Shown here one piece after another: positions 21,135 to 25,239 of a stretch of 50,929 bases of DNA. The notes under the pieces are model-generated. The model ran no database searches, was not told the origin of the DNA, and saw only the letters and a program-made list of their open reading frames with translations. How positions within the stretch are numbered: the first letter of the stretch is position 1; each line of letters begins with the position of its first letter. A program made the position numbers and the translations under genes. Source of the stretch: Bacteroidota bacterium (GTDB lineage Bacteria > Bacteroidota > Bacteroidia > B-17B0 > Aurantibacillaceae); the NCBI GenBank assembly GCA_025963735.1, contig JAOQAF010000202.1:1-50929 (forward strand), read 5' to 3'.

Positions 21135-21142
21135 TACATTTG
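21135..21142 (+). promoter_or_regulatory. -7 box (TACATTTG) of the small T9SS cargo gene
   Basis: An exact TAnnTTTG match. Its last three bases form a TTG that is in frame with the gene, but as part of the promoter it is unlikely to be a start codon. The likely ATG at 21158 is 15 bases further on. Confidence 0.5.
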
Positions 21143-21157
21143 GTTAAATCAAAAATT

Positions 21158-22162
21158 ATGAAAATGAAAAAAATTTATTTGTCTTTATTATCTCTTACAT
21201 GTGCAATGGGCATTAACGCGCAAACACTAACCCAGGCTAATCATGCGCCTGCAGCTGGTGATATGTTTAGTGTATATCAATGTGATTCAACGAACATCAC
21301 ACCTGGAGCTTCAGGAGCCGGTGCGGTTTGGAATTATTCAACCATTGTAACACATTCAAACATAGTAAGCAATTATACTGCTTCTGCGGTTACAAACACT
21401 GCTTATCCTAACGCTGATATAGCAGTTGCTTCAGGAACAAATGACATTTCTTATTTCAAATCTACAACTTCAAATTTAAAATACTTCGGCGGAAATATTA
21501 ATTTAGGTGCGGTTGCTGCAACTTTAAATTATACTTCACCAGCAGTATATGCCGGATACCCGATGACTCTTAATTCAAATACGACTTCAACAACCGGTGG
21601 CGCTTTATATATTAGCGGAAACACCGGAAGCTTTACAGGTAATTCAAATGTTGTTGCTGACGGTACGGGTACTTTGATTCTTCCAGGCGCAACTTATACG
21701 AATGTATTGCGCGTTGTAACCACACAAACTCTTAACTACACTGTTTCTATTATTACCGGAGTAGTAACTCAGTTAAACTATAATTATTATGCTGCGGGTA
21801 TTAAAAACCCTGTCTTTACTATTTCAACCTCTACATTAACAGGTGCAGGTGCTTCTACACAAACGTTTGTAACAAGATCTAAACCATCCAGCGTTGGAAT
21901 TGAAAAGAACACAATGAACACAATTGAAATGTCGGTATTCCCTAACCCGTCTAACTCATTTGTAAACTTTGCCACAGAAAGCAAAAATGCAGCGTCGGTA
22001 ACTATTTACGATCTTAACGGCAAAGCAATTGAAACTAAAAATTTAATTAACGGTTCTGTAAAATTAGATGTTAGCAATTATTCAGTTGGAATTTATTCTT
22101 ACAAAGTGATCAGCAACACCAACCATGTTTTAAAAACCGGTAAACTTAGCGTAGCTCACTAA
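21158..22162 (+). CDS. Secreted protein with T9SS type A sorting domain (small-cargo family)
   Basis: 334 residues from the ATG at 21158 (21164 also possible). A signal peptide ends near GINAQ. The mature part begins LTQANHAPAAGD, the mark of a small family that also includes the genes at 44466-45485 and 45504-46511. A beta-rich, Thr/Ser/Asn-rich body of about 220 residues is followed by a T9SS type A sorting domain (about 255-334) with VFPNPSNSFV and GIYSYKV. Body function is unknown; no catalytic motif is seen. It should be exported to the cell surface by the T9SS. A hairpin terminator follows. Confidence 0.82.
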   Translation: MKMKKIYLSLLSLTCAMGINAQTLTQANHAPAAGDMFSVYQCDSTNITPGASGAGAVWNYSTIVTHSNIVSNYTASAVTNTAYPNADIAVASGTNDISYFKSTTSNLKYFGGNINLGAVAATLNYTSPAVYAGYPMTLNSNTTSTTGGALYISGNTGSFTGNSNVVADGTGTLILPGATYTNVLRVVTTQTLNYTVSIITGVVTQLNYNYYAAGIKNPVFTISTSTLTGAGASTQTFVTRSKPSSVGIEKNTMNTIEMSVFPNPSNSFVNFATESKNAASVTIYDLNGKAIETKNLINGSVKLDVSNYSVGIYSYKVISNTNHVLKTGKLSVAH

Positions 22163-23707: not shown

Positions 23708-24667
23708 TTAAAATGTACAGTCATCCAACGATCTGCGGTTTCCTTTTTGAGGAGACATCTCTCCGCCAAAAATAGGCGAGATACTGATCATGACCTCCGC
23801 TGTGTGTGGCGCGGCGTATAACATTTTATTAATGGAAAAATCATAAGCCAGGCCAATATTAAAATTGCGCAGTACCCTGAATTGCACTATGGCACATAAG
23901 AAATTCCTTCCACGGATACTTGCACCAAAAGCCAGTTTTTTATCGTAGTAATTCATAACGTTTAATTCTACGGAAGGAAGAGCCGTTACTGAACCCCGGA
24001 GGTTAGTTGCCACCATAAATGTATTATAATCGTTCAGTTTGATTTTTTTACCGGCACTTATATTATAGTGTGGGAGCAGTTTTGATGGACTCCCATTTTG
24101 ACCTCCGATGCCGGATTGACTGAACAAAGTAATTTGCTGCAGCGAGAAATCGGCAAAAAACTTTTTGGAAGAAAGCCTTACGCCGGGCACCAAATCCGGA
24201 TAGGCAATTACTGAGCCTGAGCTCTTCATTACAGCAGGATCATTTCTATCGAGGTTATTCAGCGTAAGCTTGTATTGTTTAATGCCGGCAAACAAGCCCG
24301 CTGACAATACTATTTTTTTTGTAAGTAATAAATGAAAGGTATAAGACAACCAAACGTCGTTCTTTACAAAATTTCCGTTCTGATCCTGGTCAACATACAT
24401 CCCAACATTATGCCAATGGCTGTAACTTCTTTGCGGAACAAAATTATAATTGAAGGATACAAATTCTGATTTAGGATTATTACTTAATCCGATCCACTGT
24501 GTTCGTGCACCGAAAATAATTTCAAATGGTGCATTTACAGCAGTACCGGAAGCTGCCGGGTTATAACCAATTTTATTAAAAATAAACTGTGTGTATTGAG
24601 GAAATTGCTGTGCCTTATCCTCGCTAATTATGAAAAGAAAAAGAAAATATAAAACTGATTTTCTCAT
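23708..24667 (-). CDS. PorP/SprF-family T9SS-associated outer-membrane protein
   Basis: 319 residues. It has a signal peptide (to about residue 19, EDKAQ) and a Bacteroidota PorP/SprF-like barrel pattern: FPQYTQFIFNKIGYNPAASGT at the start, then ARTQWIGLSNNPKS, AGLFAGIKQYKL, LVPGVRLSSKKFFADFSLQ and NIGLAYDFSINKM. Proteins of this family sit in the outer membrane and are needed for secretion or attachment of a partner carrying a type B sorting domain, as SprF is for SprB. The ATG overlaps the stop of the upstream type B protein gene by four bases, so the two are almost surely a cognate pair. Confidence 0.92.
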   Translation of the reverse strand: MRKSVLYFLFLFIISEDKAQQFPQYTQFIFNKIGYNPAASGTAVNAPFEIIFGARTQWIGLSNNPKSEFVSFNYNFVPQRSYSHWHNVGMYVDQDQNGNFVKNDVWLSYTFHLLLTKKIVLSAGLFAGIKQYKLTLNNLDRNDPAVMKSSGSVIAYPDLVPGVRLSSKKFFADFSLQQITLFSQSGIGGQNGSPSKLLPHYNISAGKKIKLNDYNTFMVATNLRGSVTALPSVELNVMNYYDKKLAFGASIRGRNFLCAIVQFRVLRNFNIGLAYDFSINKMLYAAPHTAEVMISISPIFGGEMSPQKGNRRSLDDCTF

Positions 24668-25239
24668 CTGAGTATTGTTACATCGCCTTTGAGTAAGTTA
24701 TGTTTGTTGCTTCCGTCATAATAAAAGACATAATAATACGTGCCATCTAAAGCGTTAATCCCGTTCCATTTTCCATCCCAGGGCATATAATTCCCTTTCT
24801 GTGAATGAACCTGTTGACCCCATTTATTAAATACATATAATTCAAAGTGGGGGTAATAATTCCAATTGGAAATTTGCCATAAGTCGTTATAGTTATCATC
24901 GTTAGGCGTAAAATGATTTGAGATACCTACAATGCATTTATCGTTTAAAATATTATAGGTTATAGTAGTATCGAGCTTGTGTTTAATTTTTATATGAACG
25001 TTGTAATTGTCAGCGCTGAGATCGGCGATACTGTAAACTCCGGTTTGCCCGTTACTCCATTCTATGGATAAAGTATCGTTATTTTGCAGACCCAACAATT
25101 GAATTCCTGCTGCGCCTTTGGTGCAATCTTCATTTTTTTGACTGGGATTTAATGTATAAGAACTCTGCGCGTTAATATAAAACGCACTCAGAAAAAAAAT
25201 AATAATATAAAATAATTTAAAGGAAATTTTATGAAACAT
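24664..25239 (-). CDS. Small secreted protein with T9SS type B (CHU_C) sorting domain
   Basis: 191 residues. A signal peptide covers about residues 1-24 (ends FYINAQ). Residues ~25-105 are a small beta-rich region with two Cys. The last ~85 residues are a gliding-motility-associated type B sorting domain: SNHFTPNDDNYNDLWQI, YVFNKWGQQVH, WDGKWNG and DGTYYYVFYYDG. Type B cargos are usually large adhesins; this one is nearly all sorting domain. The downstream SprF-like gene overlaps by four bases. The role of the small mature part is unknown. Confidence 0.85.
   Translation of the reverse strand: MFHKISFKLFYIIIFFLSAFYINAQSSYTLNPSQKNEDCTKGAAGIQLLGLQNNDTLSIEWSNGQTGVYSIADLSADNYNVHIKIKHKLDTTITYNILNDKCIVGISNHFTPNDDNYNDLWQISNWNYYPHFELYVFNKWGQQVHSQKGNYMPWDGKWNGINALDGTYYYVFYYDGSNKHNLLKGDVTILR

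Follow-up and report, generated by a model that had tools for sequence, protein, structure and literature searches.

The window, by which we mean the whole stretch of 50,929 nucleotides that was analysed, raises the question whether a very small type B cargo of the T9SS, encoded directly ahead of a PorP/SprF-like gene, forms a genuine secretion pair, and what such a cargo could do. We found that the pair is real, conserved and unusually small (Table 1). The claim in the earlier note of a small type B cargo whose gene overlaps that of its own SprF-like partner by four bases was confirmed by the coordinates and the profile matches. The cargo scored 65.5 bits against the CHU_C profile PF13585 (cut-off 27) and 56.8 bits against the TIGR04131 type B sorting domain (cut-off 35), and the SprF-like protein, hereafter the shuttle, matched PF11751 (E 6.6e-44) and TIGR03519 (151.4 bits; cut-off 90.55). 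On basis of these curated profiles, membership of the two proteins in the type B and PorP/SprF families is certain. The genome (3.47 Mb in 269 contigs) contains 18 matches to PorP/SprF as well as 33 type B domains, and among the latter the open frame of the cargo is the shortest, with 199 codons against 264 for the next and 500 to 2900 for most. No PorE-like gene was found beside the window pair, the downstream neighbour of which is a TonB-family gene. A type A CTD protein (TIGR04183) is encoded near the pair at window positions 21140-22162 (+), and similar genes are found near the pair in relatives of the same genus (g1). The reading we favour, and consider likely, is that the pair constitutes a T9SS type B secretion module in its one-repeat form, with a cargo that would be displayed on the cell surface and possibly coupled to the gliding track.

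Table 1. Positions of the pair and its parts within the window.
Feature	Position	Strand	Basis or remark
Type B T9SS cargo gene, 191 aa	24664..25239	-	PF13585 E 4.9e-18, TIGR04131 E 1.9e-15; orthologs 181-203 aa
Signal peptide, residues 1-24, hydrophobic stretch ending ..YINA|Q	25168..25239	-	Read by eye from the sequence; kept in relatives
Probable single SprB-type repeat, diverged (residues 25-103; Ig/FN3-like sandwich)	24931..25167	-	AlphaFold2, profile match, Cys table
Type B sorting domain (CTD), residues 104-191	24667..24930	-	Profile matches; T9SS-CTD-like fold
ATGA, cargo stop and shuttle start, 4-bp overlap	24664..24667	-	Arrangement common to most relatives
PorP/SprF-like outer-membrane shuttle gene, 319 aa	23708..24667	-	PF11751, TIGR03519; PorV is top PDB match of a low-confidence model
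Cys317 in periplasmic C-tail (..LDDCTF-end)	23717..23719	-	Near-invariant in clade

The cargo model (AlphaFold2 with 17 orthologs; mean pLDDT 89.5) consists of two beta domains. The C-terminal one is closest to the translocon-bound CTD of NucA (8glk_D; 73 residues superposed at 2.1 A, Z 8.2) and also resembles PorZ (5m11; Z 8.0). In a PDB sequence search the cargo matched nothing but the CTD region of Aureispira GhpA (E 2e-4). For the N-terminal domain, Foldseek and VIA returned generic Ig/FN3 matches only. The profile of its family matches the repeats of the ~2880-aa adhesins of the same genus, and comparison of this profile with SprB repeats gave an hhalign probability of 92%, with column shuffles reaching at most 1%. 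A SprB profile built from the giant adhesins matches most of the small orthologs outside g1 (E ~1e-3 to ~4e-11); the window cargo alone matches it weakly (E 0.045) and shows no match to Pfam SprB (PF13573). The repeat is flanked by Cys39 and Cys102, which are invariant in 34/34 relatives and presumably form a disulfide. We infer that the ~80 residues ahead of the sorting domain are one diverged SprB repeat. The earlier note had taken about this number of residues as the mature protein that remains after removal of the sorting domain. The stretch exists, but it is not a separate passenger, given that functional type B signals measure 150-235 aa (PMC12618676) and that type B CTDs are thought to stay uncleaved (PMC10202324). 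The signal thus spans nearly the whole mature protein, and the cargo, with ~167 mature residues, is probably practically all signal plus one repeat.

A mature cargo that barely exceeds a functional signal could also be non-adhesive, merely closing the extracellular side of the shuttle and thereby licensing its exit from the translocon to the track, in which case the shuttle would be the working part. The observation that only SprB-loaded SprF joins GldK (PMC12635249) would suit such a cap or plug. We nevertheless regard it as improbable, as the repeat has been kept as a SprB-type fold with two invariant cysteines and under purifying selection, and as orthologs with two, five and 11 repeats occupy the same operon position, which would be needless for a pure plug. 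Since the stretch in front of the CTD reads by profile as one diverged SprB repeat, a shortened adhesin is the more economical explanation.

To follow the pair across relatives, 199 related genomes were searched for orthologs, and presence and absence were counted in the 65 family genomes that are at least 90% complete. Genus (g) and family (f) codes are the labels of the search tool, with g1 and f1 being those of the window; score thresholds for clade members were placed by eye where the lists of scores show clear gaps, and the divergent G025 copies count as present. Cargo orthologs of similar size were recovered throughout genus and family, measuring ~181-203 aa in 49 of the 65 near-complete genomes. 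Within this set, 49 genomes have both the cargo and the SprF clade and 16 have neither, with no exceptions, and because both states occur inside the genera g1, g6, g8 and g9, the co-occurrence does not go back to one inherited split. In the 30 loci read in detail the cargo measures 183-203 aa (the start of one is unclear) and the SprF-like gene overlaps or abuts it in 24. Pairwise dN/dS lies at 0.04-0.11 across the full cargo (repeat domain 0.07-0.13, CTD 0.01-0.11) and at 0.03-0.07 for the shuttle, which indicates that the cargo is under purifying selection.

The number of repeats varies between families at the same operon position: the cargo has 960 aa and 11 SprB repeats in G110 (f25), 648 aa and five repeats in G153 (f55), and ~270 aa and two repeats in f16; f1 and f21 have one repeat. 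The longer orthologs of f25 and f55 could suggest that the window cargo is the degraded remnant of a larger adhesin. This reading is in effect ruled out, with a residual probability that we deem negligible, by the steady size, the intact frames, the dN/dS of ~0.04-0.11 and the strict co-occurrence with the shuttle; relatives of the same size and order, for which the earlier note had proposed to search, were found, the size being the same in more than 50 genomes. As the shuttle tree places f25 and f55 outside f1, f16 and f21, shortening is the simpler direction, and the small one-repeat form may be derived, yet stable. The suggestion that it might be the smallest natural form of the pair held up as well, in that 181-203 aa is the lower end of the range surveyed and longer orthologs occur elsewhere.

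Among PDB entries, the shuttle model is closest to the T9SS translocon component PorV (6h3i_F, E 1.4e-7; the mean pLDDT of the model is only 63.8), and a PDB sequence search with the shuttle gave nothing credible. The tail cysteine is kept in 24/24 paired orthologs and in 23/23 diverse members, and is found in every complete clade member except G004, where it is a Ser. The C-tail is variable save for this residue, reading DC[TS]F in most of g1 and CPxFDF elsewhere. As the tail lacks the Cys-X-Cys of SprF proper and has the single near-invariant cysteine instead, the shuttle is classified as SprF-like and not as SprF. P. gingivalis PorG works with one tail cysteine. In F. johnsoniae, the Cys-X-Cys in the tail of SprF bonds Cys343 of GldK by a disulfide through which the adhesin is coupled to the moving track and which forms only once SprF carries SprB, and a single-cysteine variant of SprF cross-links inefficiently (PMC12635249). 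The window genome encodes both GldK, with three non-lipid cysteines, and GldJ, and by analogy track coupling of the window shuttle via its one tail cysteine is plausible.

Cognate pairing of a type B cargo with the adjacent SprF is experimentally known (PMC12618676, PMC9143113), and on the model of characterised relatives the favoured module would work as follows. The cargo would enter the periplasm via Sec, its C-terminal region would be taken up by the SprA translocon, and the co-translated SprF-like barrel would then collect the cargo and stay bound, and the uncleaved SprB repeat would therefore stay displayed on the cell surface. Finally, the tail cysteine would link the loaded shuttle to a partner in the periplasm; as with SprF, this would most likely be GldK of the gliding track. 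This last step, which would turn the cargo into a very short mobile SprB-type surface stub, may apply, although we put its chances slightly below even. Mobile substrates in F. johnsoniae have no PorE-like gene beside the pair (PMC12618676), and the window pair resembles them in this respect. The cargo is most likely a minimal, surface-anchored and possibly track-borne stub of the SprB type.

Two simple markers of mobility were considered and discarded. Two shuttles of the window genome combine a tail cysteine with a PorE-like neighbour, so that the cysteine is no clean marker of mobile shuttles, and a tally over three genomes likewise gave no clean split between mobile and PorE-linked ones. 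Nearly every family genome encodes GldJ, whether or not it has the module; the module therefore does not track gliding ability, and the presence of GldJ is uninformative as a link between the two. An SprF-like gene with the tail ..ISCPSF and no adjoining cargo lies directly upstream of gldJ in the window genome (G000:C211:10783-12830, L115), and likewise in G001 and G030. Two giant type B adhesins, with 2876 and 2884 aa, are encoded at G000:C9 (L185) and C161 (L186), with SprB repeats read in the C9 protein, and each is followed by an SprF-like gene without tail cysteine. Another SprF-like gene (G000:C16:1025-1847, L121) is split into two frames and is probably a pseudogene or an assembly error.

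Three features go beyond what the earlier note had described: the near-invariant tail cysteine, a TPR gene in trans and a duplicated shuttle at a second locus. Outside the window's genus the pair closes a three-gene operon of periplasmic TPR protein, cargo and SprF: in g4, g6, g7, g8, g9, g10, f16, f21, f25 and f55 the gene for the TPR protein (~235 aa) immediately precedes that of the cargo. The TPR protein has a signal peptide, as judged by eye, and two invariant C-terminal cysteines 22 residues apart, which probably pair with each other; an intermolecular disulfide with the shuttle via these cysteines is disfavoured for that reason. No OmpA-like or propeller domain was found in the protein, and no homologs were found in viral contigs. 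No description of such a TPR companion was found in a search of open-access literature, outside of which most subscription journals fall, and as a T9SS partner the protein is apparently undescribed so far.

In the window's genus the TPR gene resides at a second locus (G000:C215:8388-9071; L107:1886-2572, -) beside a second SprF, which is sister to the SprF clade of the window, indicating that SprF is duplicated in this genus. Nine g1 genomes have a cargo without adjacent SprF, the result of one event on the cargo tree (support 98/98), and eight of these retain the SprF and the TPR gene of the second locus, the ninth (G005) being 73% complete. Conversely, six g1 genomes have the window-type pair together with a TPR gene that stands alone at the second locus (two read directly), and nine near-complete g1 genomes lack both the TPR gene and the second shuttle. 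The TPR gene adjoins the cargo in G042 and G050, where the shuttle is located elsewhere; in G045 (L191:3404-5373) one small cargo is followed by two tandem SprF-like shuttles. In near-complete genomes the cargo is always accompanied by at least one shuttle of the clade, but not always the same one, which argues for a natural shuttle swap: the lineage without the cargo's own shuttle presumably uses the paralog of the second locus, as deduced only from gene loss.

The TPR protein would be a third, accessory component, which by analogy may anchor or chaperone the complex. It could even be that this protein, and not the gliding track, holds the loaded shuttle in the manner of the TPR part of PorE, possibly via the tail cysteine, leaving a fixed surface protein. 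The position of the TPR gene immediately before the cargo in the genera g4 and g6-g10 and in four other families is in line with this, as are its persistence in trans in those g1 genomes from which the second shuttle was lost and the proposal that the TPR-bearing PorE bridges PorP and peptidoglycan (PMC9143113). We consider such a static anchor unlikely, since the TPR protein lacks the OmpA-like and propeller domains, its two cysteines are probably engaged internally, and 10 near-complete genomes have cargo and shuttle without it. A bolder extension of the favoured module, which we offer tentatively and think has a lesser chance of being right, is that TPR protein, one-repeat cargo and single-cysteine shuttle form a distinct class, in which the cargo would act as loading key for the track and the shuttle would be naturally replaceable by a paralog.

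The determinants of cargo-shuttle specificity of type B substrates still need mapping (PMC12618676). A cargo of ~167 mature residues, near the minimum size of the signal, provides a natural minimum for cargo-shuttle recognition, and dozens of orthologous pairs, one lineage without its own shuttle and a series of 11, five, two and one repeats in the same operon position allow direct tests of recognition and of the parts played by the tail cysteine and by the apparently undescribed TPR partner.

Among known systems, Fjoh_1677, which serves three orphan type B substrates, is likewise encoded apart from its cargo, as in the lone-cargo g1 genomes; its service to three substrates was shown by pull-down, whereas the swap in g1 is inferred only from gene loss. 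With PG1035-PorP-PorE of Porphyromonas gingivalis the module probably shares a PorP-like barrel that anchors a type B cargo and a TPR-containing periplasmic partner. PG1035, however, runs at ~50 kDa, and PorE is a large lipoprotein that contains propeller and OmpA-like domains, whereas the TPR protein of the module is small and TPR-only. Like SprB-SprF of Flavobacterium johnsoniae, the window pair consists of a type B CTD cargo with SprB repeat, followed by an SprF-like shuttle with cysteine in its periplasmic C-tail. It differs from that system in that the cargo carries one diverged repeat where SprB is a giant adhesin, in that the shuttle has one tail cysteine in place of the Cys-X-Cys of SprF, and in that the module family is associated with a gene for a ~235-aa TPR protein.
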